Below are positions 2,189-32,019 of a stretch of 64,000 bases of DNA, piece by piece (position 1 is the stretch's first letter; every line of letters starts with the position of its first letter). The translations under genes were made by a program, and so were the position numbers. Under the pieces are notes generated by a model, which ran no database searches, was not told where the DNA came from, and saw only the letters and a list, made by a program, of their open reading frames with translations. Source of the DNA: Chloroflexota bacterium (GTDB lineage: Bacteria; Chloroflexota; Anaerolineae; DTLA01); the NCBI GenBank assembly GCA_014874485.1, contig JADBJK010000024.1:186001-250000 (forward strand). The letters run 5' to 3'.

Positions 2189-2242
2189 AGAAATTCGGCC
2201 CTTTCCGCAGTCATGAGGTCTTTCGTCGCCTGTCGCATCCAA

Positions 2243-3070: not shown

Positions 3071-3091
3071 CACCATCCCTCCTCAGAAGAA

Positions 3092-8132: not shown

Positions 8133-8648
8133 CTAGGCCGGCCAGCCACCCGTGATGAGAAGGTAGGCGGGGATTAGCAGCGTAACGATAGAGCCAATGG
8201 CCAGAATCCATTTGACGAGGAAGCCCGCCCACTTGGTCCCAAACGACAGGTTCAGCCAAGCCATCGCGAACAGCGTGGCCCAGATCAACCCGAAGACACC
8301 GAGGATCGTGTTGCCCGTGGTGCCCAGGCCGAAGAAGAACGTCGCCGACAGGAGCGTGAACAGCGCCGCGCCCAGGCAATGCCATCCCAAAGCCTTCAGG
8401 TCGTAGCCAGCCAGCAGGCACCAGCCCAGGATGATGTAGAACAGGCTGAAGGCCATGGTCAGGCCGCACAGGATCATGAGGAACGAGTCGCCCCCGGCGG
8501 TGAAGCCCAGTTGCAGCCCGCAGACGTTCATGACCACGCCCACGGCCACGTTGGCCACGCCGGTGCCCTTGGGGTCAGCCTTACCGAACAGGAACGCTGC
8601 GTCCACGATGAAGATGAACGCCGCCAGTAGCAGGATAATCGGACCCAT
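8133..8648 (-). CDS. AmiS/UreI-family membrane channel protein
   Basis: This 171-residue protein is almost entirely hydrophobic, with about six membrane helices. The N-terminal region with LFGKADPKGTGVANVAVGVV resembles the AmiS/UreI family (Gly-x-x-Asp-Pro-Lys then a helix), whose members let urea or short-chain amides cross the membrane. It has a good ribosome site (GTGAGGAGGG) before the ATG at 8648. No urease or amidase gene is adjacent in the window, so the substrate cannot be inferred from neighbours. A roughly 180-base leader with several short complementary stretches precedes it. Confidence 0.75.
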   Translation of the reverse strand: MGPIILLLAAFIFIVDAAFLFGKADPKGTGVANVAVGVVMNVCGLQLGFTAGGDSFLMILCGLTMAFSLFYIILGWCLLAGYDLKALGWHCLGAALFTLLSATFFFGLGTTGNTILGVFGLIWATLFAMAWLNLSFGTKWAGFLVKWILAIGSIVTLLIPAYLLITGGWPA

Positions 8649-8930: not shown

Positions 8931-9923
8931 TTAGCCCTTCGCCTGCAGTGCGCGAAGCACTTTCTCCGGCGTTACCGGCAGTTCGTCAATCCAGACGCCG
9001 ATGGCGTCGTGAATCGCAGCGACGATGGCCGGCGCGGGCGCGTTGGCAGTCATCTCGCCGATGCCCTTCGCGCCGAAGGGCCCATTGGTGGATGGGCACT
9101 CGTAGATGACCGTGCGGATGTCCGGGACATCCATGGCCGTGGGAATCACGTAATCGCCGAACGTCTCGGCGGGGAATTTCACGGGCGACTTGTACGGGTA
9201 CAGTTGCTCCATCAGAGCCGCCCCGACTCCCATGCCGGCACCACCCTCAATCTGCCCTTCAACCAGGAGCGGGTTCACCGCCCGGCCCACGTCGTAGGCG
9301 CAGTCCAGGCGCAGCACGGTAACCTCGCCGGTATCCGTGTCCACCTCCACCTCTGCCTGAACCGCAGCCCAGGCCAGCGTGGCAAACGGGTCGGTCTTGC
9401 CGGTAGCGGGGTCGGGTGCCGACGGCGTGCGCATGTAGTGGCCCCGACCCACGATGACCTTCCGCAGGCCGAAGGTGGCCTCGCCGGCGATGGCCCCGAT
9501 GTCCACCGAGCGCTCAGGCGCGCCTTTCACGTAGATTTTGCCGTTGGCCGCTTCCAGGTCTTCGGGCGAAGCCTCCAGTTTGTCTGCGGCGATGCTGAAG
9601 AGAATCTGCTTCGCCTCACGGGCGGCTTCTTTGGTGGCATTGCCCGCCACGAACGTAACGCGGCTGGCGAACGTGCCGAAGCAGAGCGGGCCGGTGTCCG
9701 TGTCATCGTTCACCACGTCCACCCGGTCGTAGGGCACGCCCAGTTCCTCGGCAGCGATCTGGGCCAGCACCGTCTTGCAGCCCTGGCCGATGTCCACCGA
9801 GGTCAGGATCAGGTCCACGCTGCCATCGGGCTTCACCTTCACCACCGCCTGGCTGGAGTCGCCGCCGCCGCTCATGCCGGTAGGATAGAGCCCAACAGCC
9901 AGTCCAACTCCTCTCTTCTTCAT
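8931..9923 (-). CDS. Molybdenum hydroxylase, C-terminal half of the Mo subunit (MoCoBD_2 type)
   Basis: This 330-residue subunit carries the second molybdopterin-binding region of a xanthine-oxidase-family enzyme. Visible motifs are VDIGQGCKTVLAQIAAEELG (residues ~43-62, cofactor-contacting GQG), RVTFVAGNA, AYDVGRAVNP, EGQIEGGAGMGVG and GAKGIGEMTANAPAPAI, where Glu290 matches the family's catalytic base. It begins two bases after the stop of the gene for the N-terminal half, and its ribosome site (GGGAGGGG) is embedded in the last codons of that gene, so the two are co-translated. The junction lies between domains and both parts have normal starts and stops. This argues for a true two-protein Mo subunit as in nicotinate dehydrogenase, not a frameshift. 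Confidence 0.88.
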   Translation of the reverse strand: MKKRGVGLAVGLYPTGMSGGGDSSQAVVKVKPDGSVDLILTSVDIGQGCKTVLAQIAAEELGVPYDRVDVVNDDTDTGPLCFGTFASRVTFVAGNATKEAAREAKQILFSIAADKLEASPEDLEAANGKIYVKGAPERSVDIGAIAGEATFGLRKVIVGRGHYMRTPSAPDPATGKTDPFATLAWAAVQAEVEVDTDTGEVTVLRLDCAYDVGRAVNPLLVEGQIEGGAGMGVGAALMEQLYPYKSPVKFPAETFGDYVIPTAMDVPDIRTVIYECPSTNGPFGAKGIGEMTANAPAPAIVAAIHDAIGVWIDELPVTPEKVLRALQAKG

Positions 9924-9925: not shown

Positions 9926-11230
9926 CTACCCCTCCCTCTTCTGCGTTGAGGCCATGGCCTTCAAGTGAGGCGGCAGTTCCTTGCCCACCAACCCGGCCAA
10001 CGCCTGCATCGTCTCAATCAGGGCCACCGAGTCCAGCACGCGCTGCGTCGCCGTCATCTCGCCCTCACGGAACGCGTTCTTGAAGCGCAGTTCCCACGGG
10101 TCCATGCCCAGGGCTTCCGCGATCTTGTTCATCTGCATCTCGCCCGCGTAGGTGGCCGGCGTGATTCCGAAGCCGCGCATGGAACTGGCCGGCGGCTTGT
10201 TGGTGTACACGCAGTACCCTTCCACATAGACGTTGGGGATGAAGTAGGGCCCCGCCACCAGGAAGCAGTGTTTGTCCACCACGTAGGCGTTGAGCGAGGT
10301 GTACGCGCCAGAGTCGCGGATGCTCTTGACCTGCCGTGCGACAAGCCGCCCGTCTTTCGTAACGCCGTCCTTGAACTCCATATCCCACGAGCCGCGGAAG
10401 GTGGAGAACAGCAGGTCCTCCTCGCGGGTCCAGCGCCACTTGACCGGCCGTCCGGTCTTCAGCGCCAGGAGCGCCGCGATGTGGTCGGCGTGCACGTCGT
10501 TCTTGGCGCCAAAGCCGCCGCCGACGGTCCCGCCGATCATCCGCACCTTGCTCATGGGCAGGCCCACGATGTTGCAGACCCACGTCAGGTGGAAGTACAT
10601 GGCCTGGCTGACCGTGTAGATGGTCAACCGGCCGGTGGCCTCGGGCACCGCCAGCGACACGTGCGGCTCCATCTGAGCGTGCTTCAGGCCCTGATGGTGA
10701 TACTTGCCTTCCACGATGATGTCGGCCTTCTTGAAGCCCTCGTTGACGTCGCCGAAGATGATCTTGCGGCATGGGCTGTCGCCGTACATGAAGATGTTGC
10801 CCTCGGGCCGGACCTTGGGAGCGCCGGGTTTCATCGCCTCCAGCGGGTCAAACACCGGCTCCTGCTCCTCAATCTCCAACTTCATCTTGTCCACGGCTTC
10901 CAGCGCCGCATCCTCATTCTCGGCGGCCACGACGGCGATCAACTCGCCTCTGTAGCGCACGTGGTCTTCCGCCAGGACGTACTGGTCGCCGCCCCAGCCG
11001 TAGCGGTTGTTGGGAACGTCCTTGTGGGTCATGACGGCTACTACGCCGGGGACTTTCTCCGCGGCGCTCACATCCAGGGACTTGATCTTGCCCTTCGGCA
11101 CCGGGCTGCGGAGGCCCTTGACCACGAGCGTGCCGGGGACGATGACGTCATCTACGAACCGCGTCTCGCCCGCCACGTGGGCCAGGCCGTCGTACCGCTT
11201 GACTCTTTGTCCAACTACATTCAGCGCCAT
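9926..11230 (-). CDS. Molybdenum hydroxylase, N-terminal half of the Mo subunit
   Basis: This 434-residue protein starts with the a/b hammerhead domain (VVGQRVKRYDGLAHVAGETRFVDD, residues about 5-115). It continues with the first molybdopterin-binding domain, containing QMEPHVSLA, GGTVGGGFGAKND and the arginine-containing MRGFGITPA motif that contacts substrate in this family. It ends where a fused Mo subunit would pass into its C-terminal domain, which the next gene supplies. Ribosome site GGAGAGGATCC precedes the ATG. Known relatives with this split include the large and medium subunits of Eubacterium barkeri nicotinate dehydrogenase. The substrate here could be an N-heterocycle or an aldehyde; sequence alone does not decide. 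Confidence 0.88.
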   Translation of the reverse strand: MALNVVGQRVKRYDGLAHVAGETRFVDDVIVPGTLVVKGLRSPVPKGKIKSLDVSAAEKVPGVVAVMTHKDVPNNRYGWGGDQYVLAEDHVRYRGELIAVVAAENEDAALEAVDKMKLEIEEQEPVFDPLEAMKPGAPKVRPEGNIFMYGDSPCRKIIFGDVNEGFKKADIIVEGKYHHQGLKHAQMEPHVSLAVPEATGRLTIYTVSQAMYFHLTWVCNIVGLPMSKVRMIGGTVGGGFGAKNDVHADHIAALLALKTGRPVKWRWTREEDLLFSTFRGSWDMEFKDGVTKDGRLVARQVKSIRDSGAYTSLNAYVVDKHCFLVAGPYFIPNVYVEGYCVYTNKPPASSMRGFGITPATYAGEMQMNKIAEALGMDPWELRFKNAFREGEMTATQRVLDSVALIETMQALAGLVGKELPPHLKAMASTQKREG

Positions 11231-11245: not shown

Positions 11246-11710
11246 CTAGGCCTTCTCGCCCGCTGCGGCCATGATGGCGTCCACGATCTTGACGTAGCCC
11301 GTGCAGCGGCAGAGGTTGCCGGATAGGGCCTCTTTCACCTCATCGCGGGTCGGCTTCGGGTTCTCGTCCAGCAGCGCCTTTGCCGCCATGAGCATGCCCG
11401 GCGTGCAGAAGCCGCACTGGGCCGCGTAGTGCTCGTGGAAGGCCAACTGCAGAGGATGGAACGCCCCAGGCCGTCCAAGCCCCTCAACCGTCAGCACTTC
11501 CTTGCCGTGCACGGTCAGCGCGTTGGTGATGCACGCCTTGACGAGTTTGCCATTGACCAGCACCGAGCACGCGCCGCAATCGCCCGTCTCGCAGCCGACC
11601 TTCGGGCCGGTGATGCCCAACTTCTCCCGCAGCACCTGCAGCAGGGTCGTCGTGGCCTTCACCTCTACCTTGTAAGCCCGACCGTTGACTTTCAATTCCA
11701 ATGTGTACAT
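11246..11710 (-). CDS. Molybdenum hydroxylase [2Fe-2S] subunit
   Basis: This 154-residue electron-transfer subunit has both iron-sulfur domains of the family. The plant-ferredoxin-like one has Cys40, Cys45, Cys48 and Cys60 (VGCETGDCGACSVLV and KACIT). The helical one has Cys99, Cys102, Cys134 and Cys136 (QCGFCTPGM and LCRCTGYVKI). It passes electrons from the molybdenum site to the FAD subunit. The ATG at 11710 is preferred because AAGGGGTGG lies at proper distance; a GTG at 11719 would add three residues but sits on that site. The gene lies between those for the FAD and Mo subunits, with gaps of 15 bases on each side when the 11710 start is used. Confidence 0.93.
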   Translation of the reverse strand: MYTLELKVNGRAYKVEVKATTTLLQVLREKLGITGPKVGCETGDCGACSVLVNGKLVKACITNALTVHGKEVLTVEGLGRPGAFHPLQLAFHEHYAAQCGFCTPGMLMAAKALLDENPKPTRDEVKEALSGNLCRCTGYVKIVDAIMAAAGEKA

Positions 11711-11725
11711 GGAAGCCACCCCTTT

Positions 11726-12622
11726 CTACGCTACAATCCGCTCAAGGAGGCTCTTGACAAGCCCCTCGCTGGCCTGACGCCGATACCACGCGGAAGCGCG
11801 CACGTCGTCAATGGGCGATGTCTCCTCGGCGGCGGTCTTGGCGACCTTGGCGATCAGTTCGGCATCCAACGCGCTCCCTTCCAGCAGCGCCGACGCCTTC
11901 TTGGCCACAAGCGGCGTGGGTGCCACCGCATTGAGCACGACGCGCGCCTGCGAGCATTTCTCAAAGTAGCAGGCCTGGTCGCGCGCGATGGCCGTGCCGC
12001 GCGGCGCTCCGCCTTCCGCCTTGAAGATGACGGCCCCCGCAACCACCGACAGCGTCCCGGCTTTCCGGCGCCCGATCTTGTGGTACGCGAACTTCACGTC
12101 CTTGTCGGGCACGGGGATAATCACTTCCACCAGCAACTCGTCCGGTTTCCGCACGGTCTCGCCCGGGCCCTTGAAGAACGCCTCCAACGGCACCACGCGC
12201 TCGCCCGACTTGGATGCCAGTTTCACCGAAGCGCCCAGCGCCAGGAGCGGTACCGAGGAGTCAGCCGCGGGCGAAGCGGTTACCAGGTTGCCGCCGATGG
12301 TGCCCACGTTGCGGATGGCGGGGGTTCCGATGTGCTTCACCGCCTCGGCCAACAGAGGCAGTTTCTGCTTCACGACATCGGAGCGGAGTATCTCGGCGAA
12401 GGGAGTCGCGCCCCCGATCACGACTTTGTCCCCCAGGTCCTTGATGTAGTTGAGGCCACACTCGCCAATGTACACGAGGACTTCGGGGGCAAGTTGGCGG
12501 CGGTTGACCTTGACCATGATGTCGGTCCCGCCGGCCAGGACATGGGCCTTTGCCCCGTACTTGGCGAGCAGGTCTAGGGCCTCTTGCACACTGCTTGCAC
12601 GATAGAACTCGCCTCCAGACAT
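11726..12622 (-). CDS. Molybdenum hydroxylase FAD-binding subunit
   Basis: This 298-residue subunit belongs to the CoxM/XdhB FAD family. It has the two flavin-binding signatures VLAGGTDIMVKV (about residue 30) and NVGTIGGNLVTASPAADS (about 105-123), followed by the LxExxxPxP strand and the CO-dehydrogenase-flavoprotein C-terminal domain from about residue 175. It takes electrons from the [2Fe-2S] subunit. The gene order FAD, FeS, Mo-N and Mo-C matches a full four-polypeptide enzyme. A 122-base gap separates it from the dehydratase gene upstream, the largest gap in this operon; no convincing promoter was seen there. Confidence 0.92.
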   Translation of the reverse strand: MSGGEFYRASSVQEALDLLAKYGAKAHVLAGGTDIMVKVNRRQLAPEVLVYIGECGLNYIKDLGDKVVIGGATPFAEILRSDVVKQKLPLLAEAVKHIGTPAIRNVGTIGGNLVTASPAADSSVPLLALGASVKLASKSGERVVPLEAFFKGPGETVRKPDELLVEVIIPVPDKDVKFAYHKIGRRKAGTLSVVAGAVIFKAEGGAPRGTAIARDQACYFEKCSQARVVLNAVAPTPLVAKKASALLEGSALDAELIAKVAKTAAEETSPIDDVRASAWYRRQASEGLVKSLLERIVA

Positions 12623-12744: not shown

Positions 12745-14397
12745 CTAGAGCCAGACAGCGCCCGTTTCCGCGCCGCGCACCCGCTCACGGTACGCAGCCA
12801 GCACACCGGGAGCCGGATGATCCGGACGGGCGGGCGGCGACTTCTGCCTATCCCGCAGTTCCTCGTCCGAGATCAGCACGCTCAACCGGCTCTCGGGCAC
12901 ATTGATCTCAATCATGTCGCCGTCGCGGACATAGGCCAGCGGGCCGCCATCCCACGCCTCCGGGCAGACATGCCCCACGCACGGGCCGCGCGTCGCGCCC
13001 GAGAAGCGGCCATCGGTAACCATGGCCACCGACGTGTGCAGCCCCATTCCCACCAGCATCGCCGCAGGGATGGACAGTTCCCGCATCCCCGGCCCGCCTT
13101 TCGGCCCCTCGTATCGCACCACGAGCACAGACCCAGGGCGGACCTCCTTGGTCAGCATGAACTCGCGCACATCCTCCTCGGAGTCAAAGACGACCGCCGG
13201 GCCACGGTGCACCAGCATGCTCGGCTCCACACCCGTCTTCTTGACCACCGCCCCCAGCGGGGCCAGGTTGCCGCGCAGAATCCCAAAGCACCCGTTGGGC
13301 GCGAGAGGCTCTGCCGCGGGCCGAATCACCACGCCGTCGGGCCGGGGCGCGGCGCGAAGCGCATCTCCCAGGGTGCCGCCCGTCGCCATCGGCACGCTCA
13401 AATCCAGCCAGTCGCGGATGGTGCCCAGCAGCGCGCGCACCCCTCCCGCCATGTGATAGTCGTCCATGTTGTACTGCGCCGAGGGCTTGAACTTCGCCAC
13501 CACCGGCACCGACGCCTGCAGCCGGTCAAACGCCGCCAGGTCCAGGTCCACGCCCATCAGCGACGCGAAGGCCAGCGTGTGCAGGATGGCGTTGGTGGAG
13601 CCTCCCGACGCCGAGATGTACTTGATGCCATTCTCCAGATTGGCCCGCGTGAAGAACTCGCCGAAGGGCCTGCGCTCGCGCACCAGCGCGACGATACGCT
13701 CGCCCACGTCCCGCGCCTGGCGCAACTTCGCCGAGTCAAAGGTCAGCATGGTCGCCGACCCGAACGGCGCCAGGCCAGTCGCCTCCAGGAAGCAGCCCAT
13801 GGTGTTCGCCGTGCCCATCATGGAGCACGTGCCACACGATGCGCAGAAGTGTTCCTGCCAGTCCTCAAAGGTGGCATCGTCTATCTCGCCCGTGCGCCGC
13901 TTCCCGATGGCTTCCTTCAGGTCCGACGTAACCACGGTGCGGTTGCCCATGCGGTAGGGCATCATGGCCCCCGCCGTCAGGAACAGCGTCGGGATGTTCA
14001 GGCGGATGGCCGCCATGACCATGCCGGGGATGATCTTGTCGCACGAGGCCAGCATCACCATCCCCTGGAACCCATGCGCTCGCACCATCGCCTCTATGGA
14101 CCCTGCGATGAGGTCGCGTTGCGGCAGGATGAAGTGCTGGCCCGGCCCCTGGGCCATGCCGTCGCACGGCGCGGGCACGTTGAACTCCCCTGGCGAGCCG
14201 CCCGCCGCCCAGATGCCCTCTTTCACCCGCTGGCTCAAATCCTTCAGCGGCAGGTGGCCGGGGTTCACGTCGGTCCACGAGTTCACGACGGCGATCTGCG
14301 GCTTGTCCAGGTCCTTCTTGCGGTAGCCCACCGCGTGCATCAGCCCACGGTAGTAGGCTTCGGTAATCTCTTCTGGTCGGCCTCGGTGCTCTGCCAT
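12745..14397 (-). CDS. IlvD/Edd-family dehydratase, substrate unassigned
   Basis: This 550-residue protein is an iron-sulfur dehydratase of the family that includes dihydroxy-acid, phosphogluconate and sugar-acid dehydratases, which turn a 2,3-dihydroxy acid into a 2-keto acid. The three cluster cysteines are visible in [19 protein letters not shown] and [13 protein letters not shown]. The substrate-side [21 protein letters not shown] motif near residue 460 is typical. It is distinct in sequence from the second IlvD-family protein in the window (24885-26546). The start lies three bases after the reductase stop, with GAAGGGGT as ribosome site. Its place between a reductase and a molybdenum hydroxylase suggests a catabolic sugar-acid or hydroxy-acid step, not branched-chain amino acid synthesis. 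Confidence 0.85.
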
Positions 14398-14400
14398 GCG

Positions 14401-15294
14401 CTACCCCTTCTTCCGGAATTCCACGCCCAGGATGCGCTCAAAGACTTTGATCATCGCGCCCTTGTCCTCGTCCCCCAGACCCTGGGCCAGCGCCATCTGG
14501 TACGTTGTCGTCGCCGCATGCACCATCGGCAGCGGAATCTTCTGGTGCGCGCTGATCTCTGCCGCGCTGATCATGTCCTTGTAGGCATGTTTGAGCGGAT
14601 ACCCCTCGTCAAACTTGTTCTCCAGGATGCGCGGCGTGAAGAACTCCACGGCGAAACTGCGCCCGGTGCCGGTTACGATGACCTGCGCGATCTTCTCCGG
14701 GTCCAGGCCCAGTTTCACCGCCATCGGCAGAATTTCGGCCATCGCGGCGCAGGCGGTGTTGAACAGCAACTGGTTGATGAGTTTCGCCAACTGGCCGCAG
14801 CCGATCTTGCCCATGTGGATAATGGTATTGCCGATGGCCTGGAAGACCGGATACACCGTCTGGAACACCGCCTCGTCGCCGCCGAACATCACCGTCAGCG
14901 TGCCGTCCTTCGCCCGCGCCTCCATGCCCGAAACCGGCGCGTCCACGAAGACCACGCCCTGTTGGGCCAGGCGCTCGGCGAACCCCAGCGTCGCCATGTA
15001 GCCGATGGTGCTCAGGTCCACGACGATCAGCCCGGACTTAGCACCCTCCGCAATCCCGTCGGGGCCGAACAGCACGCTCTCCACCACCTGGGTGTTCGGC
15101 AGGCTCAGGAATATCCAGTCTACCTGGCCCGCCATCTCCTTGGGCGAACGCGCCGCTTTCGCGCCCGCCTCCTTCAGGGCGCTGACCGCCGCCTCGCTGA
15201 TGTCGTACACGGTCAGGTCAAACCCTGCCTTCAGGACATTCAGGGCCATCCACTTGCCCATCTGTCCCAGACCGATGAATCCAACCTTTGCCAT
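14401..15294 (-). CDS. 3-Hydroxyisobutyrate-dehydrogenase-family NAD(P)-dependent reductase
   Basis: This 297-residue protein has the N-terminal Rossmann signature VGFIGLGQMGKWMALNVLKAG, the DAPVSGMEARAKDGTLTVM substrate loop, and the catalytic lysine in GCGQLAKLINQLL (about residue 170). This is the beta-hydroxyacid dehydrogenase family: tartronate semialdehyde reductase, 3-hydroxyisobutyrate dehydrogenase, and 2-(hydroxymethyl)glutarate dehydrogenase of nicotinate fermentation. Members reduce a semialdehyde to a 3-hydroxy acid or do the reverse. The last of these is notable because the neighbouring four-subunit Mo hydroxylase is organised like nicotinate dehydrogenase, but the other nicotinate pathway genes are absent. 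GAGGGGG precedes the ATG. Confidence 0.88.
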   Translation of the reverse strand: MAKVGFIGLGQMGKWMALNVLKAGFDLTVYDISEAAVSALKEAGAKAARSPKEMAGQVDWIFLSLPNTQVVESVLFGPDGIAEGAKSGLIVVDLSTIGYMATLGFAERLAQQGVVFVDAPVSGMEARAKDGTLTVMFGGDEAVFQTVYPVFQAIGNTIIHMGKIGCGQLAKLINQLLFNTACAAMAEILPMAVKLGLDPEKIAQVIVTGTGRSFAVEFFTPRILENKFDEGYPLKHAYKDMISAAEISAHQKIPLPMVHAATTTYQMALAQGLGDEDKGAMIKVFERILGVEFRKKG

Positions 15295-15324
15295 AGTCCC
15301 CCTCGTCTCGTATTGATCGTCCGG

Positions 15325-16209
15325 CTACAGGCCCAACGCCCGCGCCGGGTTGTCGGCCACCATGGTGCGGATGTCCCGCTCCGACAGACCGAGGTTCAGC
15401 ATATCTTTTATGTAAATCCCCATCTGCTGGGCCGGAACGGGATTGAGCCACTGGCCGGAATCCGTGGACATGATGCAGTGTTGCGCGCCGATGGCCTTGA
15501 TGGCGTTGTACAAATCCGCCACCTTGATGGGATGGGCCACCTGCCGCGTGGTGTCGTTGTACACATGCTCCAGGTACGTCGCGCCCGCGTCCAGGATCGC
15601 CTTCATGTCGTCCACGCTGTAGGCCACGAAACTGGCGCACGGGTGCGTAACCACGATCTTGCGCACGCCCCGCTCGGCCGCCGCCCGCACCAGAACCATC
15701 GCCTCCTGGATGGTAATGTGGCCCGTGGCGAGCATCACGTCCCACTTGGCGATGAGGTCCAGAATGGGATACACCTCATCCTTCAGTTCGCCGTTCGGCT
15801 TCAGGATGTAGATGCCCTGGATGTCCTCGCCCAACTGCGCCGCCAGGTTCGCCACGTGGCTCTTGTTCTCAATGAACTTCTGCGCGTGGAGCGTGGGCAT
15901 CCACACCACCTTGGCACCCAGTTTCAGCGCCACATCCACCGCGTGGTGATTCAGCCCGCCCACCGTGAGGTTCAGTGCGATGCCGCCGAACACCGGGAAA
16001 TCTGCCACTTCCGACGCCACCTGTGCCCGGCTTGCCGTCTCCACGAAGTGGTTCTTGACCAGAATCGCCCGCATCCCCATCTCTTTGGCCTGCTGGGCCA
16101 GTTCCACGTCGTTGAGGATGCGCGGGTACACGTCCGGGGCCGAATGGATGTGCAGGTCAATGGCCCCTTCCAGCAAACCCATCACCTTGCTGTCAAACCG
16201 AAGTCTCAT
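15325..16209 (-). CDS. DUF6282-type amidohydrolase-fold protein
   Basis: This 294-residue predicted metal-dependent hydrolase starts its core with DLHIHSAPDVYPRILND, the His-x-His metal motif seen in DUF6282 proteins. Later it shows VKNHFVETASRA, GLNHHAVDVAL, ATGHITIQEAM, VTHPCASFV and TDSGQ, all of which fit the TIM-barrel metallohydrolase pattern of ligands on strands 1, 5, 6 and 8. The start at 16209 was chosen because GAGGAGCGG lies just upstream; the upstream ATG at 16221 forms part of that site. No substrate is known for this family. In the operon it follows the LarA-like gene by 46 bases, and it could open a cyclic amide or lactone. Confidence 0.72.
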   Translation of the reverse strand: MRLRFDSKVMGLLEGAIDLHIHSAPDVYPRILNDVELAQQAKEMGMRAILVKNHFVETASRAQVASEVADFPVFGGIALNLTVGGLNHHAVDVALKLGAKVVWMPTLHAQKFIENKSHVANLAAQLGEDIQGIYILKPNGELKDEVYPILDLIAKWDVMLATGHITIQEAMVLVRAAAERGVRKIVVTHPCASFVAYSVDDMKAILDAGATYLEHVYNDTTRQVAHPIKVADLYNAIKAIGAQHCIMSTDSGQWLNPVPAQQMGIYIKDMLNLGLSERDIRTMVADNPARALGL

Positions 16210-16255
16210 TCCGCTCCTCATGCCCGCAGTCTGCCACCCACATGGGCGTAGGCTG

Positions 16256-17548
16256 CTAGAGTTTCCCGTCCGCGCCCCGGCCGGTAACAATCCATTTGCC
16301 GTAGGGGAAGTGCCCCACCTTCACATCGGGGCCGTACTTGGCCCTGACGCGCTCCCAAGCCTCCTGCAGCGAAGTAACCGCCGGTATCTTCACAATCTCA
16401 AAGTCGGGCAGGCGCTCCGGCTCCGTAACGACGATGACTTCCTTGCGCGCCATGACCTCAATCACCGGCAGCCACAGGCAGGCATGCCACAGCGCCTGCT
16501 TGCCGTAGAACACATCGTCGTACAGGCGGCGCATGGCCTCCTTCGTCGGCGGCATGTAGTCCTTGGCGTAGGCGTAGTGGGCCAACCCGCCCGGCACCGG
16601 CGTCGCCACGATGATGGTGCCCCCGTCCCGGACGAACGGGTCCAGGTTGGCGATGGGCCAGCACGCGTGGGCGAAGAAGCGGTCGCCCGGGAACGATCCG
16701 CTGATGCCCACATCCAGCGACCCGCCCGGAATCTTGGCGGGGTCAAAGGCGTAGCGGGCGTTGTACTTCTTGACCGAGGCGCGGTGCGCGGCCAGCGTGT
16801 CGCCAGCCGTCAGGTCTATCAGTTCCATCTTGGGGTTGAAGATCGCCAGCAGCGACATGTCCAGGCGGGCCAGCGCCATCGCCTCCTCAATGTCCTCGCG
16901 GAAGCGGTTCAGCGGCGGCTCGTACCCCACTTTCATCGTGGGCGAGGTCATCAGCCGATGGTGCCACTCAATGGTCTCAAAGGAACTCACGCCCGGCAGA
17001 ATCATGCTCCCGCCGCCGCCGTAGCCCCACAGCGTCGCCTGCGTCATGGTTACGGCCAGCCGGAAGTCCGCCGCCAGGAATCGCTTGTGCACGTTGATGG
17101 GCGAGCCGTAACTCGTAACGCCCACGAACTCAAAGTCCCACGTCTCGCGGGCTTTGCTGACAATGATGGGAATCCCAGAGTTGAGGATTTCCTTGCCCAG
17201 TTTGCGCTCCAGTTCGGTCTCGCTCATCTCGCGGAGCGCCCCGCTGGCGATGAGGATTTCCACGTACTTGCCCGCCTGCTTGATCCTCTCCAGGATGGGC
17301 GGCAGGAGTTTGTACGCAGGGGTCAAGCGGGCGAAGTTGTCCACGAGGATGACGACGCGGTTGGCTTTGCGCAGTCGCTCGGAGAAGGGCGGCCCTGCCA
17401 CCGGGTTCTCCAGCGCCGCCAGGATGGCGTCGTTGAGGTTCGGCATCTCGCCGGGAAACGGCACGTCGGTGTTCAGGACCAGGTTCTTGTCTGGAACCTC
17501 CAGGTCCAGCATCCCTTTCACGCCATAGGGTACGTGGATGACTGCCAT
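16256..17548 (-). CDS. LarA-like protein (DUF2088/lactate racemase family) lacking cofactor residues
   Basis: This 430-residue protein aligns with nickel-pincer lactate racemase LarA along the N-terminal DUF2088 domain. Landmarks are VVILVDNFARLTP, ILIASGALREMSE, WGYGGGGSMILPGVSSFETI and the later GDRFFAHACWP region. LarA needs two catalytic His residues, a Lys that holds the nickel cofactor and a His nickel ligand. At the equivalent places this protein has Leu105, Ala171 and Ser181; only the last position, His197 (EWHH), is kept. So it is unlikely to racemise lactate with the usual cofactor. The start at 17548 has AAAGGAGATGG; an upstream in-frame start is weaker. It lies between MoaD-like and DUF6282 genes in the AOR operon and probably acts on a hydroxy acid in that route, by another mechanism or as a binding protein. 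Confidence 0.82.
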   Translation of the reverse strand: MAVIHVPYGVKGMLDLEVPDKNLVLNTDVPFPGEMPNLNDAILAALENPVAGPPFSERLRKANRVVILVDNFARLTPAYKLLPPILERIKQAGKYVEILIASGALREMSETELERKLGKEILNSGIPIIVSKARETWDFEFVGVTSYGSPINVHKRFLAADFRLAVTMTQATLWGYGGGGSMILPGVSSFETIEWHHRLMTSPTMKVGYEPPLNRFREDIEEAMALARLDMSLLAIFNPKMELIDLTAGDTLAAHRASVKKYNARYAFDPAKIPGGSLDVGISGSFPGDRFFAHACWPIANLDPFVRDGGTIIVATPVPGGLAHYAYAKDYMPPTKEAMRRLYDDVFYGKQALWHACLWLPVIEVMARKEVIVVTEPERLPDFEIVKIPAVTSLQEAWERVRAKYGPDVKVGHFPYGKWIVTGRGADGKL

Positions 17549-17607
17549 TGTCCATCTCCTTTCGTTTCGCACCTGCTGCGGTGCACACGGACGCTGCTAT
17601 GGAATTG

Positions 17608-17919
17608 TTATCCGCCGGCCAGATTCAGAATCAACGCGAGTTCATCTCCGTCGCTGACCGGCGTCTGGAGCGCCTCATCGCGGTTCAACTGCACCGGCAC
17701 ATCGTTGACGAAAGCCGTCCACGCCGGCACAACCGTGTCGCCGTCGCCGTACAGGTAGCGGCGCATCTCGGCCCCGTATCGCGCCACCAGCGCCTCCAGC
17801 GCGTCGCCCACCGTGGCCGGTGCGTCCAGCGCGATCTGCACCCGGTCGCTGCCTGCCGCGCTGTTGAGCGGCGGGTACAGGTGAACCGACAGGTTTACCG
17901 CGCGTCGCTGCTCACTCAA
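17608..17919 (-). CDS. MoaD/ThiS-like small sulfur-carrier protein
   Basis: This ~103-residue protein ends in the LNLAGG tail, the Gly-Gly end that MoaD/ThiS proteins use to carry sulfur. The middle matches the ubiquitin-like fold: a PATVGDALEALVARYG helix, then AFVNDVPVQL and PVSDGDELALI. MoaD supplies sulfur to make the pterin dithiolene that binds Mo or W. AOR gene clusters often hold a dedicated copy, and this one overlaps the AOR stop codon. The start is uncertain. I chose TTG at 17919, in the TTGAGTGAG overlap with the AOR stop, because no ATG is closer; the ATG at 17979 would lie well inside AOR. Confidence 0.78.
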   Translation of the reverse strand: MSEQRRAVNLSVHLYPPLNSAAGSDRVQIALDAPATVGDALEALVARYGAEMRRYLYGDGDTVVPAWTAFVNDVPVQLNRDEALQTPVSDGDELALILNLAGG

Positions 17920-19864
17920 CTTTGCCGCAGTCCGATACCGGCAGTTTGCCGCGGGCTTCCAGATCGTCGGCGATCGCATTCAGGCCCAGGCGCTCCAGGC
18001 CGGCGCGCGTGGGCAGGCCCGTGTCCGGATCCCACCGGCGGTCCTCGTAGTATTCGGTCAGGATGGCGTCAAACTTCTCCAGGTCCACAACGGCCCCGCC
18101 GCTCGGCCCGCCGCCCAGCAGCGGCTCCTCAAAGAAGCGGCGCGGGATCACGTCGTCGGCGCGGGTCGCACCGCACCGCGTGTTGTATGCCTTCTCCACG
18201 TTGAAGGCACGCTCGCCCGCCATCAGCATCTCTTCTTCGCTCAGGTCGCGGCCCGTGCAGGCGTTGTAGAACCGCGTGGCCAGGTGCACGCCCTTGCGGT
18301 AGAGGTACGGGAATGTCGCCGAGCGGTAGTACGCGAACTTGCACAGCCCCAGGATGTCGCCGATGGTAACGAAATCCTCGCTGAACTTCAGCATCTTGCC
18401 CTTGCCGCGCACCCCGTGCTTGATGTCAGCAGCCTCTTCTGTGCCGAACCACTGGAGCGCCTCCTCCGGCCGCATGATCTCCTCAATGTACGGGTTGGAG
18501 CGCAGGTGGTCGCTGCCGCGCGTGGACGTGGCGTAGGAAACCGCACGCACGGGCATCCCGCGCGGGTCGCCCGCCGTCATCTCCCCGCCCTTCACGTGCA
18601 TGGCGAATCGCTCGCTGCCGCGCCCGATCTTCTCGGCGGCGCGCTTGGTGCCTTCGGCCAGGATGTTCGCCAGTTCACCCTGGCGCAGGGCGATGCGCCG
18701 GGTCATTTCCAGCCAGGCCGCCTCGTTGCCGAACTCCAGCACGAGGCCCTCGGTCTCCTTCTCGGTCAGAATCCCGTTCTCAAAGCATTCCATGGCGAAG
18801 GCGATGGTATCGCCGGTGCCTTCCGTGTCCAGGCCGTAGTGGTTGCACTGGTTTGACCAGGCGATGACGGCCTCCGGGTTGGTAACGCCGCAGGTCATGG
18901 AGCGGGCGATGGTCTCCCACTCCAATTTGGCCGTAACGCCCGCGTAGGGGCCGGTGCGCACGCGGTAGTCGCGGCGACAACGCACCGGGCACGCCAGACA
19001 CGCCCCCGCCTTCACCTGATAGTCCGAGCGGAAAATCTCCGGATCCAGCGTCTCCCAGGGATACGCGCCGTACCGCCAGTTCTCCGCCCCGTGGATGCCG
19101 AACTTCACGCGATGGCCCATGAAGCGGCAGGTGCCGTACTTGGTCGCCGGCGGGACGTAGGGATCCACCGCGATAGTATCCAGGTAGTCCTTGTACGCCG
19201 CCTTCAGCGCGGCGATGTCGGCCACGCCGATGTCGCCCGTGCCCCGCGTTACGATAGCCTTCAGGTTCTTGGAGCCCATGACCGCGCCCAGGCCGCACCG
19301 CGCGCTCACGCCCTTGTCGGCGCCATTGTGGTACACGCCCGCAAGCCGCACCAGGTTCTCGCCCGCCGGGCCGATGCTCACGGTGCAGACATCCGGACCG
19401 AACGTCTTGCGCGCCCAACTGTGCACGCCCGACGTGAACTGCCCGCGCAGGTGGGCCGCGTCGCGAATCTCCACGGTATCGTTGTCAATGTACAGGTACA
19501 CCGGCCTCTCGGCCTTGCCCTGGAAAATGAGCACATCGTACCCCGCCCGCTTCAGTTCAGCGCCCCACGACGCCCCCGAATGCCCGTCGCCGTGCATGTT
19601 GGTCAGGGGCGACCGCGCGGCGACCGTCGTGCGGCTGGCTGCAGGCACGCCCGTGCCGATGAGCGCGCCGGGCGAGAAGATCAGCCGGTTGGCGGGATCA
19701 AAAGGCTCCACCTCTGGTGGAACCTCTTCGTACAGAATCTTGGATGCGATGCCGCGGCCGCCAAGGAATAGGTCAATGTACTCGGAGCCGAGTTCCTCGG
19801 TGGTGATGGCTCCGGTGGTCAAATCCACGCGCAGAATCTTGCCCGCATACGAGTTCTTCGCCAT
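17912..19864 (-). CDS. aor: Aldehyde:ferredoxin oxidoreductase family tungsten enzyme
   Basis: This 650-residue protein belongs to the AOR family, which uses a tungsten bis-pterin cofactor and one [4Fe-4S] cluster to oxidise aldehydes to acids, passing electrons to ferredoxin (or the reverse). The N-terminal cofactor domain begins with YAGKILRVDLTTGAI and includes LGGRGIASKIL and PLTNMHGDGHSG. Cluster cysteines are in ACLACPVRC (about residue 294-300) and in GLCKFAYYRS near residue 520. Family motifs GDPRGMPVRAVSYATSTRGSDH and DTEGTGDTIAFAMECFENG are intact. Length and motifs suggest an active enzyme, but AOR paralogues with other aldehyde substrates or benzoyl-CoA reductase (BamB) roles exist. 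The partner ferredoxin is encoded just upstream. Confidence 0.92.
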   Translation of the reverse strand: MAKNSYAGKILRVDLTTGAITTEELGSEYIDLFLGGRGIASKILYEEVPPEVEPFDPANRLIFSPGALIGTGVPAASRTTVAARSPLTNMHGDGHSGASWGAELKRAGYDVLIFQGKAERPVYLYIDNDTVEIRDAAHLRGQFTSGVHSWARKTFGPDVCTVSIGPAGENLVRLAGVYHNGADKGVSARCGLGAVMGSKNLKAIVTRGTGDIGVADIAALKAAYKDYLDTIAVDPYVPPATKYGTCRFMGHRVKFGIHGAENWRYGAYPWETLDPEIFRSDYQVKAGACLACPVRCRRDYRVRTGPYAGVTAKLEWETIARSMTCGVTNPEAVIAWSNQCNHYGLDTEGTGDTIAFAMECFENGILTEKETEGLVLEFGNEAAWLEMTRRIALRQGELANILAEGTKRAAEKIGRGSERFAMHVKGGEMTAGDPRGMPVRAVSYATSTRGSDHLRSNPYIEEIMRPEEALQWFGTEEAADIKHGVRGKGKMLKFSEDFVTIGDILGLCKFAYYRSATFPYLYRKGVHLATRFYNACTGRDLSEEEMLMAGERAFNVEKAYNTRCGATRADDVIPRRFFEEPLLGGGPSGGAVVDLEKFDAILTEYYEDRRWDPDTGLPTRAGLERLGLNAIADDLEARGKLPVSDCGKVE

Positions 19865-19869: not shown

Positions 19870-20424
19870 CTAACCCCTCTTCTCCAGTCTCTTCAGGACG
19901 GGCCCTTCGCCGCTGGGGGTGCTGCGCCGCAGTTCATCGCTGGCGGCCAGCAGCGCGGCAAAGCGCAGGCGGTTGTGCTCCGACACCTGCTCGTCATCCA
20001 GTGCACCCAGCACGTGCGACGGGCAGATGTCCACGCACGCCGGCGACTCGCCGCCGCACAGATCGCATTTGATGGCCTTGTTGGTTACGGGGTCCAGCGT
20101 GATGATGCCGTAGGGGCACGCCCCCACGCATGCCCCGCACGACGTGCACTTCGTCTCGTCCACGACAACGATTTGCAGTTTCTTGTTCAGTACGATGGCG
20201 TCAAACTTGCAGGCCGCCTGGCATGCGGGGTCCTGGCACTGCTGGCAGGTAACCGGTACATCTATGCCGGTGGAGAGTTCCGCCACGCGGATGCACGCCC
20301 GATAGGGGTTGAACGCGCCGACGTGCTGCAGCGAGCAGTACAACTCGCACAGATGGCACCCGCTGCAAATCCCCGTCGCCTCCCAGGGGTGATTGGTGTA
20401 AACAATCCGCTTCTTCTTTGCCAT
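19870..20424 (-). CDS. Multi-cluster ferredoxin, electron partner of the AOR
   Basis: This 184-residue iron-sulfur protein has four cysteine groups like the HycB/DmsB-type electron-transfer subunits: CSGCHLCELYCSLQH near the N-terminus, CQQCQDPACQAAC, CTSCGACVGACPYG, and CDLCGGESPACVDICP. That predicts four [4Fe-4S] clusters. The gene starts the long operon, and its stop lies five bases from the AOR start. Such AOR-linked ferredoxins carry electrons away from the tungsten site to soluble or membrane carriers. No twin-arginine or other signal is visible, so it should be cytoplasmic. GGGAGAGAA precedes the ATG. Confidence 0.9.
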   Translation of the reverse strand: MAKKKRIVYTNHPWEATGICSGCHLCELYCSLQHVGAFNPYRACIRVAELSTGIDVPVTCQQCQDPACQAACKFDAIVLNKKLQIVVVDETKCTSCGACVGACPYGIITLDPVTNKAIKCDLCGGESPACVDICPSHVLGALDDEQVSEHNRLRFAALLAASDELRRSTPSGEGPVLKRLEKRG

Positions 20425-20590: not shown

Positions 20591-21415
20591 CTACGAAGGC
20601 GAGTACAGATACCCCTTGCCGCGTATGGTCCGAATCAGGCGGGGTTTGGCTGGGTTGGGCTCCACCTTGCGCCGCAGGCGCGAGATGTGCGGGCGAATGA
20701 TCTCCGCGGCCTCCCGCTCCGAGACATCATAGCCGAGGGCCGTTCTGGCCAGGTGGCGGCACGAGAAGACCGTGTCGGGATTGCGAAGGAACTGCGCCAT
20801 GAGCGCCATCTCGTTGCCCGTCAGCGCCACCGTGCGGGCCTCCCGTCCATCCGTCGCGCCCACCAGCAGCAACCCCTTGGCCTGGTCCAGCGTCAGGCCA
20901 CCGGCGCGGACGAACCGCTCTACTCCCGTGTCCGTCGGCTGGGCCGCAGCCTTCTCCTCGTCCTGCAGCGCCGACAGGGCATCGGCCATCACGCGGATGA
21001 GGTGCTGACGGCGCAGGCGCTCCTGGCGCTGCTGCAGGGCGCGAGCCACCGCCTCGCCGATCTCGCGGATGCTGCACGGCTTCAGCAGGTAGTCGGTCGC
21101 GCCGGACTTCACGGCCACCACCGCGCTTTCCAGCGTCGCGTGGGCCGTCAGGATGATGATGAGCGTGTTCGGGTAACTCTCGCGCACGCGCTTCATCACC
21201 TCCACACCGTCCAGTCCGGGCATCCGCAGGTCCAAAAGCACGAGGTCATACGGCGATGCCGCCAGCCGCTCCAGCGCCTGGGTGCCCGACGCGGCGGCAT
21301 CGGCCTTGTATCCCATCAGGTTCAGCGCCCGCGTGATGGCCATGCGCGGGGTCGCCTCGTCATCCACCACCAGGATTCGCGCTTCAGGAATCGGCGGATA
21401 AGCAGGGTCCGGCAA
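20591..21415 (-). CDS. Response regulator with winged-helix output domain
   Basis: This 274-residue protein has an N-terminal receiver domain (about residues 12-125) with LVVDDE acidic pocket, phospho-acceptor in LVLLDLRMPG, Thr in IIILTAHA and Lys in YLLKPCS. After a linker, the C-terminal part (about 175-272) looks like an OmpR-type winged helix, ending RRKVEPNPAKPRLIRTIRGKGYLY. The start was set at the TTG at 21415, because a near-perfect AGGAGGTGGACC site precedes it; longer ATG frames run deep into the kinase gene. The gene overlaps the kinase by about 32 bases, so the pair is co-translated. It probably controls the catabolic operon it closes, or the AOR operon immediately downstream. 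Confidence 0.9.
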   Translation of the reverse strand: MPDPAYPPIPEARILVVDDEATPRMAITRALNLMGYKADAAASGTQALERLAASPYDLVLLDLRMPGLDGVEVMKRVRESYPNTLIIILTAHATLESAVVAVKSGATDYLLKPCSIREIGEAVARALQQRQERLRRQHLIRVMADALSALQDEEKAAAQPTDTGVERFVRAGGLTLDQAKGLLLVGATDGREARTVALTGNEMALMAQFLRNPDTVFSCRHLARTALGYDVSEREAAEIIRPHISRLRRKVEPNPAKPRLIRTIRGKGYLYSPS

Positions 21416-23726
21416 GGTCCACCTCCTGCGACTCGCGGCGAATTTCCGGCGCCAGCGGAAGCGACACGATGAACGTCGCGCCTCCGCCCTGCGCGTTCCG
21501 GGCCGTGATGGAGCCTCCGTGCCCTTGGATGATGCTGTGGCTGATGGCCAGGCCCAGGCCCGTACCGTCCTCCTTCGTCGTGTAGAACGGCTCAAACATC
21601 ATGCTCATGGCTTCGGGTGCAATGCCGGGGCCGGTGTCTGAAAACGCCAGTTCCATCTGGCCCTCGCACACCCGCGCCGCGATGTCCAGCGAGCCGCCAT
21701 CGGGCATCGCCTCAATGGCGTTGATGATCAGGTTCAGAAACACCTGCGACAGGTGGTCGGCGGAAGCCATCACGGGCGGCAGGTCTGCGGGCATATCCAA
21801 CGTAACCGCGATGCCCCGCTGCTGCAACTGGTTCGCGGCCAAGTCCAGGGCGTGGCGCACCAGCGGCGGCACCAGCGTGGGGCGGCGCTCAATCTGCGGC
21901 GGGCGCGCGAAGTCCAGCACCCGCTCGCTCAAGGCCATGAGCCGCTCAATCTCACGCTGCACGGCCAGCAGGTACTCGTGGCGCTCCTCCGGCCCCAGCG
22001 GAAAGTCCAGCACCAACTCCAGGCTGTTGCCGATGCCCTGGAGTGGGTTGTTGATCTCGTGGGCCAGGGCTGCCGCCAGCCGCCCCATGGCCGCCAGGCG
22101 CTCCGTGCGGAGCATGTACTGCTCCATGCGCTTGCGCTCCGTGATGTCGCGGATCAGCGCCACCCAGCCGATATGCCGGTGTTGCTCGTCCTCCAGCGGC
22201 ACGACGCTGTGCTCCGTCGTGAACACGCGCCCGCTCTTGTGCTTCATCTGGAACTCCGGCAAGAACAGGAAGCCCTTCTCGGCCAGCGCATCGCGCAGGT
22301 GCCGATTGAACTCCTCCACGGCGGCCCCGTCCACGTGCAGCAGCCCGATCTCCCGTTCCAGCATCTCCTCGCGCCTGTAGCCGAATATCTCCGTGGCGGC
22401 TGGGTTGCAGTCCAGAATCCGCATGTCCAGGTCTATGATAAACGCGGCGTCGCGCAGGCTCGCGAACGTCTTTTCCAGCAGCCGACGGGACTTGCCCAGC
22501 GCCTCCTCGGCCTCGCGGCGCTTGGTGATGTCGCGGACGTACTCAATGACCCCGATGCACGTGCCGTTGTTGTCGTACATGGGGAAGGCGTACAGTTCCA
22601 GCCAGCCCTCCACGCCCTTGGGGCCGGTCAGTGGAATCTCATCCATCTGCGGCGTGCCCTTCTCCATGGCGCGCCGCGTTGGGCAGATGACGCACGGCTC
22701 GCTCCGCAGGTGATACGCCTGGTAGCACAGTTTGCCCACGAGGGGCGTCGCATGGGCATACCATCGCTCCATGGCGTTGTTGACGCGCAGGATACGCATG
22801 TTCGTATCCAGGACGCTGATGCCGTCCTGAATCCCATCAAACACCGCCTGGAGAAACCACTCGTCGTAGCGAATCTTTTCCTCGGCGCGCTTGCGTTCGG
22901 TGATGTCGCGAACGTACTCAATGGCGCCCACGGGCCTGCCGTCGTCGCCCAGCATCGGGAATGCGTAGAGTTCCAGCCAGCCCCACACCCCATCCTTGCC
23001 CGTCAGGGGCACCTCGTCCATCTGGGGAGCCCCCGTCTCCATGGCGCGAATGGTGGGGCAAACGGTACATGGCGCGGAGCGGCCATGATACGCATGGAAA
23101 CACTTCTTGCCGACCAGCGGAACCATATGGGCGTACCACTTCTCCATGGCCTGGTTCACGCTGACGATGTTGAGGTCCCTGTCCAGGACGCTGATGCCGT
23201 CCTGAATCCCGTCAAACACCGCCTTCAGGAACCGCTCGTCTCGGCGAATCTTGTCCTCGGCCCACTTGCGCTCCGTGGCGTCGCGGACGCAGGCCACCAG
23301 ATACGGCTCGCCCTCCAGGAGCACCCGCCGCAGCGTAACCTCGGCGGGGAAGACAACCCCCGACCGCCGCTTGCACGTCAGCGTGAGAGACGCCGCGCCC
23401 GACTGCAAAGCATCCCGCACGAGCCGCCGGGCAGCGTGCGCCGACTCTGGCGCGACCAGGTCGCACACATCCGCGCCGATGAGGTCGCTGCGCGGGCAGG
23501 CGAAAATCTCGCACGCCGAGGGATTGCAATCCAGAACAATGCCGTCGGACGTCTGCAACACAATCGCCTCGGCAGCCGCCTCAAACAGCGCCCGATAGCG
23601 TGCCTCGCCTACCTCACGCCGATCTGCGATGACGCGGGACTTCGTCCGCTCCACCTTGCCTCGCCCATCCTTGCAGGGCGGCCCGAAGTGGCCGACGAAG
23701 GCCTTGTCCGCCGGCCACTTCGGCAC
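21384..23726 (-). CDS. Multi-PAS sensor histidine kinase
   Basis: This 780-residue protein has no clear membrane segment, so it is likely cytoplasmic. It carries four PAS domains (about 45-160, 165-285, 290-405 and 410-530). Two contain a Cys-rich loop (CFHAYHGRSAPCTVCP and CYQAYHLRSEPCVICP), a pattern often seen in redox- or metal-responsive PAS sensors of anaerobes. The HisKA domain has the H-box ALAHEINNPLQG and the ATPase domain follows with NAIEAMPDGG (N-box) and DTGPGIAPEA, GTGLGLAI. The start is a GTG at 23726, 12 bases from the stop of the metallohydrolase gene. It belongs to the second catabolic operon, suggesting it senses a pathway metabolite or redox state. Confidence 0.9.
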   Translation of the reverse strand: MPKWPADKAFVGHFGPPCKDGRGKVERTKSRVIADRREVGEARYRALFEAAAEAIVLQTSDGIVLDCNPSACEIFACPRSDLIGADVCDLVAPESAHAARRLVRDALQSGAASLTLTCKRRSGVVFPAEVTLRRVLLEGEPYLVACVRDATERKWAEDKIRRDERFLKAVFDGIQDGISVLDRDLNIVSVNQAMEKWYAHMVPLVGKKCFHAYHGRSAPCTVCPTIRAMETGAPQMDEVPLTGKDGVWGWLELYAFPMLGDDGRPVGAIEYVRDITERKRAEEKIRYDEWFLQAVFDGIQDGISVLDTNMRILRVNNAMERWYAHATPLVGKLCYQAYHLRSEPCVICPTRRAMEKGTPQMDEIPLTGPKGVEGWLELYAFPMYDNNGTCIGVIEYVRDITKRREAEEALGKSRRLLEKTFASLRDAAFIIDLDMRILDCNPAATEIFGYRREEMLEREIGLLHVDGAAVEEFNRHLRDALAEKGFLFLPEFQMKHKSGRVFTTEHSVVPLEDEQHRHIGWVALIRDITERKRMEQYMLRTERLAAMGRLAAALAHEINNPLQGIGNSLELVLDFPLGPEERHEYLLAVQREIERLMALSERVLDFARPPQIERRPTLVPPLVRHALDLAANQLQQRGIAVTLDMPADLPPVMASADHLSQVFLNLIINAIEAMPDGGSLDIAARVCEGQMELAFSDTGPGIAPEAMSMMFEPFYTTKEDGTGLGLAISHSIIQGHGGSITARNAQGGGATFIVSLPLAPEIRRESQEVDLAGPCLSADS

Positions 23727-26546: not shown

Positions 26547-26576
26547 CGGCACCCCCCTTGTGCAGATTGTCCGTTG

Positions 26577-26731
26577 TCATTGCGAGCGAAGCGAAGCAAT
26601 CCCCCGCTCCATCTGTCATGCTGAGCGAAGCATCTCGGTTGCCGAGATTCTTCGGCGCTCCGCGCCTTCGCGCCTCCGTAAGGACAATTCATGAATTGTC
26701 CCTACGGACGCCCCCCGCACTCTCGCAATGA
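26577..26731. repeat. Palindromic MITE-like intergenic repeat element
   Basis: A ~155-base element fills the gap between the IlvD and BKACE genes. Its ends are inverted copies of TCATTGCGAG (26577-26586) and CTCGCAATGA (26722-26731). Inside are ATCTCGG/CCGAGAT (26632-26648) and a perfect 20-base palindrome at 26682-26701, extended to a 32-base imperfect one (26676-26707). Motifs such as GAGCGAAGC recur. No protein is encoded. It looks like a mobile, non-autonomous repeat that the operon tolerates. Confidence 0.75.
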
Positions 26732-26761
26732 CGAACCGTCAAGAGTCCCTGTGGCAAAGTA

Positions 26762-27640: not shown

Positions 27641-27654
27641 CTCTTACCCTCGTC

Positions 27655-28614: not shown

Positions 28615-28683
28615 GGCGATCCTCCTTGTGGCGAGAAGGTGCGATCTGTGGCAGGTGCGAATTCTAACGTTTACCCAAGCCCT

Positions 28684-28712
28684 ATTATACCACAACTTCG
28701 GGCCAGTGGCAC
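28684..28712 (-). promoter_or_regulatory. Extended -10 promoter candidate, proximal, for the hydroxyacyl-CoA dehydrogenase operon
   Basis: TATAAT (28689-28684, minus) is preceded by TGG to make an extended -10, with GTGCCA at -35 spacing 17. The 14-base string AGTTGTGGTATAAT is identical to that of the fchA promoter at 44013. Confidence 0.6.
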
Positions 28713-28755
28713 AGTCTCTTGCAGCGCCGGGGAACAATTCTCAACGCCCGCGCCA

Positions 28756-29882: not shown

Positions 29883-30000
29883 TCCTGCACCTCCTCGTGT
29901 TCTTGTGCGCTTGCGCGCGTTTGAAAACGCCGATTGGAAACCCCGAACCCCGCGAGCGTGGGCGGATGCCCTATGCCGTCATCCGCTTCCGCCTCGCGGC

Positions 30001-31956: not shown

Positions 31957-31970
31957 GACGGGTTCCTAAA

Positions 31971-32012
31971 GCAGGGGCGAACCCTCGCTTCGCGCCATCG
32001 GTCCGCCCCTGC
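31971..32012. repeat. Intercistronic hairpin between acsC and the RACo gene
   Basis: GCAGGGGCG (31971-31979) and CGCCCCTGC (32004-32012) make a perfect 9-bp stem in the 63-base gap; inner ACC/GGT can extend it past one mismatch. With no U tract it may protect the upstream mRNA or lower readthrough into the repair gene. Confidence 0.6.
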
Positions 32013-32019
32013 AGGGTCG

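Follow-up and report, generated by a model that had tools for sequence, protein, structure and literature searches.

The window analysed here, meaning the whole stretch of 64,000 nucleotides, carries on its minus strand an operon that includes a LarA-like gene, P0001 (Table 1). Read 5′ to 3′, the operon encodes a 4Fe-4S ferredoxin-like protein, a member of the aldehyde:ferredoxin oxidoreductase (AOR) family, a MoaD-like protein, the LarA-like protein, a DUF6282 protein, a β-hydroxyacid dehydrogenase and an IlvD-like dehydratase. The FAD, FeS and two Mo subunits (Mo-N and Mo-C) of a Mo hydroxylase come next, and then an AmiS/UreI channel. P0001 is a single open reading frame, with its ATG at 17548 and its stop codon included in the end at 16256. 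In comparisons with the PDB, the Mo subunit scored 263 bits with nicotinate dehydrogenase (3hrd) and 177 bits with the next best entry, and the β-hydroxyacid dehydrogenase scored 227 bits with 3cky and 214 bits with a generic relative. The DUF6282 protein, which has an HxH motif, is possibly a metal-dependent hydrolase; a PDB sequence search with it gave no match, and its AlphaFold2 model is of low confidence (pLDDT 66.6), with a weak resemblance to TIM-barrel/amidohydrolase proteins. Elsewhere in the window, the XdhC-family maturation protein and the molybdate transporter near the far end of the operon are consistent with the use of Mo enzymes, and the Wood-Ljungdahl set suggests an acetogenic or CO2-fixing anaerobe.

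Table 1. Features of the window, with positions counted from its first nucleotide; the operon genes are listed in the 5′ to 3′ direction.
Feature	Position	Strand	Basis and remarks
4Fe-4S ferredoxin-like electron-transfer protein	19870..20424	-	Pfam; conserved beside AOR
AOR family, tungsten type by family	17912..19864	-	Pfam AFOR_N/AFOR_C; best PDB match 1aor; conserved neighbour
MoaD/SAMP1-like (ThiS family) small protein	17608..17979	-	Pfam ThiS, E 2.6e-5; PDB match SAMP1; conserved neighbour
P0001, LarA-fold protein without the NPN lysine and catalytic histidines	16256..17548	-	430 aa
DUF6282 protein, HxH motif DLHIHSAPD	15325..16221	-	Pfam, E 5e-68; directly downstream of the LarA-like gene in most loci
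β-Hydroxyacid dehydrogenase (HIBADH-like)	14401..15294	-	Best PDB match 2-hydroxymethylglutarate dehydrogenase, 3cky
IlvD/Edd-family Fe-S dehydratase	12745..14397	-	Family and PDB matches; conserved neighbour
Mo-hydroxylase FAD subunit	11726..12622	-	Pfam FAD_binding_5/CO_deh_flav_C; conserved order
Mo-hydroxylase 2Fe-2S subunit	11246..11719	-	157 aa; named by its place between the FAD and Mo subunits; 52-81% identity outside the genus
Mo-hydroxylase Mo subunit, N-terminal half	9926..11230	-	Best PDB match nicotinate dehydrogenase large subunit, 3hrd
Mo-hydroxylase Mo subunit, C-terminal half (MoCoBD_2)	8931..9923	-	Conserved order
AmiS/UreI family channel	8133..8648	-	After the operon; likewise after the operon in L084
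XdhC-family maturation protein, MFS molybdate transporter	974-3076	-	Near the far end of the operon
PAS histidine kinase, response regulator	20594-23726		Between the operon and the genes at 24888-28737
Second IlvD-type dehydratase, BKACE β-keto acid cleavage enzyme, 3-hydroxyacyl-CoA dehydrogenase	24888-28737	-	Upstream of the operon
Wood-Ljungdahl set	28965-43582	-	Pterin-binding methyltransferase, RACo activator, two CdhD, ACS beta, CODH, FTHFS, FolD

P0001 matches the Pfam family Lar_N (PF09861) with an E-value of 1.6e-33 and 116.1 bits, against a curated cut-off of 23.3, and its closest solved relatives by sequence in the PDB are the malate racemase Mar2 (6d6z) and, after it, lactate racemases. 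An AlphaFold2 model built on a 37-sequence alignment reached a pLDDT of 94.1 and a pTM of 0.92; in a Foldseek search of the PDB with this model, the strong matches were all of the LarA type and full-length, with a TM of 0.83-0.88 for lactate racemases, holo forms included, of 0.84-0.88 for 2yjg, 5huq and 9eia, and of ~0.86 against holo-LarA (5huq/6c1w). As modelled, P0001 is a full-length LarA-fold protein, and structure prediction thus upholds the intact fold that the initial annotation had assumed.

The active-site positions were counted on one alignment of 95 sequences (15 from the clade of P0001 described below, 69 other LarAs and 11 distant relatives), with residue roles in LarA as given in PMC7583248 and PMC11851776. 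The lysine that tethers the nickel-pincer cofactor (NPN), K184, corresponds to S181 of P0001; S or G occupies this column in 15/15 clade members, whereas the lysine is present in 69/69 other LarAs and in 11/11 distant relatives. Catalytic H108 corresponds to L105, in a column that is L or V in 14/14 clade members and H in 68/68 other LarAs. The column of the second catalytic histidine, H174, is T in 15/15 clade members, and among the 69 other LarAs it is H in 63 and S in 6. Loss of the lysine and of both histidines, as claimed in the initial annotation, is thus confirmed and extends across the clade. The gapless spacing (66, 10, 16) on which that claim relied locates Leu105, Ser181 and His197 correctly, whereas MAFFT places a one-residue deletion before G175, so that the equivalent of H174 becomes T172 in place of Ala171; neither residue is a histidine. 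Apart from this choice between A171 and T172, misalignment is ruled out: local MAFFT, genafpair MAFFT and HMMER agree, and the model spans the whole fold.

Three further losses accompany these: D72 (N71 in P0001) and the substrate-carboxylate contacts Q295 (His294) and K298 (Trp297). Y294 corresponds to A293. The Ni-coordinating H200, conserved throughout the alignment, is retained as His197; the initial annotation was right about this residue and wrong in making it the sole survivor, because R75 is also retained, as Arg74. A lysine-histidine pair elsewhere in the pocket, which that annotation had named as evidence against itself, is found by half: H294, at the LarA Q295 position, is the one new invariant histidine, and none of the pocket columns offers a replacement lysine. 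Read from the alignment, the covalent NPN anchor, both proton-relay histidines, D72, Q295 and K298 have all been replaced in the P0001 clade.

What stands in their place is conserved. Of the 430 columns, 75 are invariant within the clade, and the longest invariant run, TQATLWGYGG (T169-G178, 10 residues), is of a length that was reached in 0/20,000 shuffles; in canonical LarAs, the loop that leads from catalytic H174 to the NPN lysine reads EPHxxAGxSGG instead. At further positions that serve the substrate or the cofactor, the clade is invariant for N71, R74, H197, H294, W297 and C357, the last of which aligns with LarA W358, a substrate-specificity position (PMC11770544). This entire set, TQATLWGYGG169-178 included, is fixed across two subclades that are only ~34% identical. 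The pattern, with its geometry taken from the alignment, indicates a pocket that has been rebuilt and not one that has been lost. The substituted positions are those to which work on LarA assigns a role with the substrate or the cofactor (PMC11851776; PMC7583248).

The changes are confined to a small and coherent group. Fifteen sequences from two phyla have them, one of which is a decayed fragment, and the 14 near-complete sequences form a single branch in the phylogeny with support of 100/100. Orthologs of P0001 share 97-98% identity within the genus, 77% in another family of Anaerolineae (L013) and 61-70% in the phylum of L008, which is named Deltaproteobacteria and labelled Myxococcota in the tree. 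A second subclade (L040, L069, L070 and L074) has V/T/G at the three lost sites. The clade is uncommon, being present in 4/396 genomes sampled in the class and 6/395 in the other phylum. Among close orthologs of P0001, dN/dS is 0.033-0.038, and the gene is therefore under strong purifying selection. On the phylogenetic evidence, the P0001 subfamily of the LarA fold has a single origin; its changes are the product of neither chance nor decay, because they define one clade at 100/100 and the dN/dS is 0.03-0.04. Two other sets of LarA variants were noted. One (L002, L016, L018, L020 and L021, with one member in the genome of P0001) has Ser for catalytic H174 within GPSPYAGYSGG and keeps H108, K184 and H200; the other (L017, L103, L104, L109, L110, L118, L134 and L135) keeps H108, H174, K184 and H200 and has a changed or missing C-terminal Q295/K298 motif.

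None of the lar biosynthesis genes lies in the 64,000-nt window, and the initial annotation had taken the missing larB, larC and larE as a sign of cofactor independence. This argument fails: the genome of P0001 encodes larE-larB-larC in a row on a different contig, and larC is present in 11/12 carrier genomes. Every carrier also has several Lar_N genes. The genome of P0001 has six in total, and the NPN lysine, H108 and H200 are intact in all five others, namely L001-L004 and the divergent L006. NPN is therefore available in the cells, and co-occurrence cannot decide whether P0001 uses it. A tethered NPN is disfavoured because K184 has been lost from a position at which it is kept by all other members compared, including groups in which a catalytic histidine is gone; LarA homologs that lack one catalytic His have likewise been reported to keep the Lys (PMC12611868). 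We thus infer with some force that covalent NPN attachment has been lost in P0001. That P0001 has given up every cofactor is less certain, since it retains the equivalents of R75 and of the Ni ligand H200.

It is accordingly conceivable that P0001 still uses NPN non-covalently, with Ni on H197, the phosphate on R74 and the GG loop, and H294 or T172 replacing the histidines in a hydride-type, non-racemisation reaction. The invariance of the H200 and R75 equivalents in the clade, the match of the fold to holo-LarA, the lar genes of the carriers and the finding of Gatreddi et al. (PMC12611868) that NPN is still present in LarA homologs whose active sites are altered all favour this. However, all 80 other sequences in the comparison, even the most divergent, have the lysine K184, other lineages that are missing a catalytic His have retained the Lys, and D72, which contacts the cofactor ribose (PMC12611868), has changed to Asn. 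We regard non-covalent use of NPN as unlikely, while giving it real weight.

The operon itself is conserved across loci. At L084, where the LarA-like protein is 77% identical, the gene order is the same as in the window throughout. L075 and L085 retain the LarA-DUF6282-dehydrogenase-IlvD-hydroxylase part, and L008 retains 4Fe-4S-AOR-MoaD-LarA as far as the contig end. At L078 and L079, the four hydroxylase subunits directly follow the LarA-like gene, and AOR, DUF6282, the dehydrogenase and IlvD are absent. A Mo hydroxylase lies near the P0001-type gene in all loci that are neither cut short nor decayed. In the second subclade a related hydroxylase, with a one-piece large subunit, lies within ~4 kb at 3/4 loci, with a UbiD decarboxylase confirmed at L081. 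At L083, which encodes a 39% identical paralog, no Mo-hydroxylase match was found nearby. By comparison, of the five other larA loci in the genome of P0001, four canonical ones showed no Mo-hydroxylase match in the ~7.5 kb read on either side; the contig of the fifth is just 3.9 kb. P0001 is thus encoded in a conserved operon together with a split Mo hydroxylase of the nicotinate-dehydrogenase type, AOR, MoaD, DUF6282, a hydroxymethylglutarate-dehydrogenase-like enzyme and an IlvD-type dehydratase. Beside the paralog of L083 there is also a 502-aa protein (P0002, 12684-14189) with no Pfam or NCBIfam match, for which a profile comparison with LarA was not significant; a relationship to LarA was rejected. 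It is followed at 14246-17740 by a NadC-like QRPTase, a molybdopterin-binding-domain protein, 2-oxopent-4-enoate hydratase and acetylating acetaldehyde dehydrogenase.

Because L078 and L079 lack the other enzymes, the Mo hydroxylase is the only fixed partner of the LarA-like gene, an arrangement that would also suit a function linked to the hydroxylase. P0001 might then be a non-catalytic pseudoenzyme that serves the adjoining Mo hydroxylase in maturation, assembly or sensing, and the hydroxylase is indeed its most constant neighbour, as well as the sole part of the window operon that accompanies the LarA-like gene in L078 and L079. On the contrary, the longest conserved block and many of the clade invariants fall at pocket positions, the make-up of the operon is catabolic, and the second subclade lies beside different hydroxylases or, in L083, beside none that was detected. 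A non-catalytic role is rather improbable on this evidence.

It is very improbable that P0001 acts as a conventional NPN racemase or epimerase that draws its Lys and His from other positions. Its top matches in sequence and fold are lactate and malate racemases, and H294 provides a new pocket histidine, but the pocket columns contain no substitute lysine, K298, Q295 and D72 are gone as well, and the NCBIfam racemase models score far under their cut-offs (182.5/500 bits at best, then 141.3/540, 140/462 and 137.4/460). That the gene is decaying or an assembly error has a negligible likelihood and is refuted for the copy in the window by its dN/dS and by intact orthologs of 60-98% identity in independent assemblies, even though at L080 (9608-10647, genome G739) a LarA-like gene and its DUF6282 neighbour have both decayed to fragments.

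The proposal that P0001 was recruited to a different job is well supported by its own clade, new invariant pocket, strong purifying selection and an operon quite different from the surroundings of the genome's canonical larA genes. As to what that job may be, we see an even chance that P0001 is an active enzyme without covalently tethered NPN, acting in the anaerobic catabolism of a nicotinate-like N-heteroaromatic acid. Its substrate would be an intermediate formed after ring hydroxylation. In LarA, the counterpart of R74 binds the substrate carboxylate or the phosphate of NPN; in P0001, R74 would continue to anchor the substrate through a carboxylate or phosphate group, and H197, H294, T172, N71 and C357 would perform acid-base or metal chemistry, such as an isomerisation, a hydration or a C-C/C-N lyase reaction. 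Ring reduction could be taken over by AOR, ring opening by DUF6282 and dehydration by IlvD.

The N-heteroaromatic acid is suggested because the Mo subunit is by far closest to that of nicotinate dehydrogenase, which is also split, and the dehydrogenase is closest to 2-hydroxymethylglutarate dehydrogenase. Eubacterium barkeri uses both of these enzymes to degrade nicotinate anaerobically; other dedicated enzymes of its pathway are a ring reductase, an enamidase, 2-(hydroxymethyl)glutarate dehydratase and methyleneglutarate mutase. The hydroxylase of that fermentation (3hrd) is divided into FAD, FeS, Mo and Mo subunits as in the P0001 operon, in the order FAD-FeS-Mo-Mo, and the E. barkeri 2-hydroxymethylglutarate dehydrogenase (3cky) is the best solved relative of the dehydrogenase of the operon, ahead of a generic relative by a small margin (227 against 214 bits). 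To our knowledge, AOR, the IlvD-type dehydratase, DUF6282 and a LarA-like protein have no part in the E. barkeri pathway. Nicotinate as the actual member of the substrate class is only an analogy.

P0001 shares with the NPN racemases and epimerases of the LarA/LarAH type (Mar2, 6d6z; 5huq; LarA_Ip, 9eia) the two-domain fold, Lar_N and the equivalents of R75 and H200. It differs from them in lacking K184, H108, H174, D72, Q295 and K298, in possessing TQATLWGYGG, H294, W297 and C357, and in its operon. The single-histidine LarAH proteins LarA_Sp and LarA_Bw (9q3j, 9q3k; PMC12611868) resemble P0001 in having the fold of LarA but a changed active site. However, they keep His108 and the Lys tether and replace only His174, by Asn, whereas P0001 has neither histidine nor the Lys; covalent NPN has been shown for LarA_Sp (PMC12611868). 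Desguin et al. (2020, PMC7583248) state in one sentence that LarAH groups 12, 13 and 16 do not conserve the residues for catalysis and NPN binding and that these groups probably do not use NPN; they also doubt that the groups are LarA homologs. The P0001 clade, which may or may not correspond to one of these groups, is a clear LarA homolog. As an idea, a cofactor-free relative of LarA is therefore not new, having been mentioned there in 2020; the interest of the P0001 clade is that it is coherent and testable. Our literature search found no paper that links a P0001-like protein to a Mo-hydroxylase operon, nor did it yield anything about DUF6282, about DUF2088 together with AOR or an operon, or about COG3875 together with Mo hydroxylases.

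Members of the LarA superfamily are taken to be NPN enzymes, and it is by their fold that DUF2088 genes receive a racemase annotation. For the P0001 clade this annotation is probably wrong, given the absence of an NPN tether and the different invariant pocket, and TQATLWGYGG (10 residues) together with FxH..W provides a signature by which P0001-type proteins can be flagged in any genome. The full account, which we advance tentatively and at somewhat less than even confidence, is that a branch of the LarA fold without the covalent nickel-pincer cofactor has acquired a new active site (N71, R74, T172, H197, H294, W297 and C357) and carries out a so far undescribed step of anaerobic N-heteroaromatic degradation, within a pathway that is itself undescribed, in uncultured Chloroflexota and Deltaproteobacteria-type bacteria. 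The operon suggests a concrete substrate class, and the clade constitutes a natural test of what the LarA fold may be able to do without a tethered cofactor.
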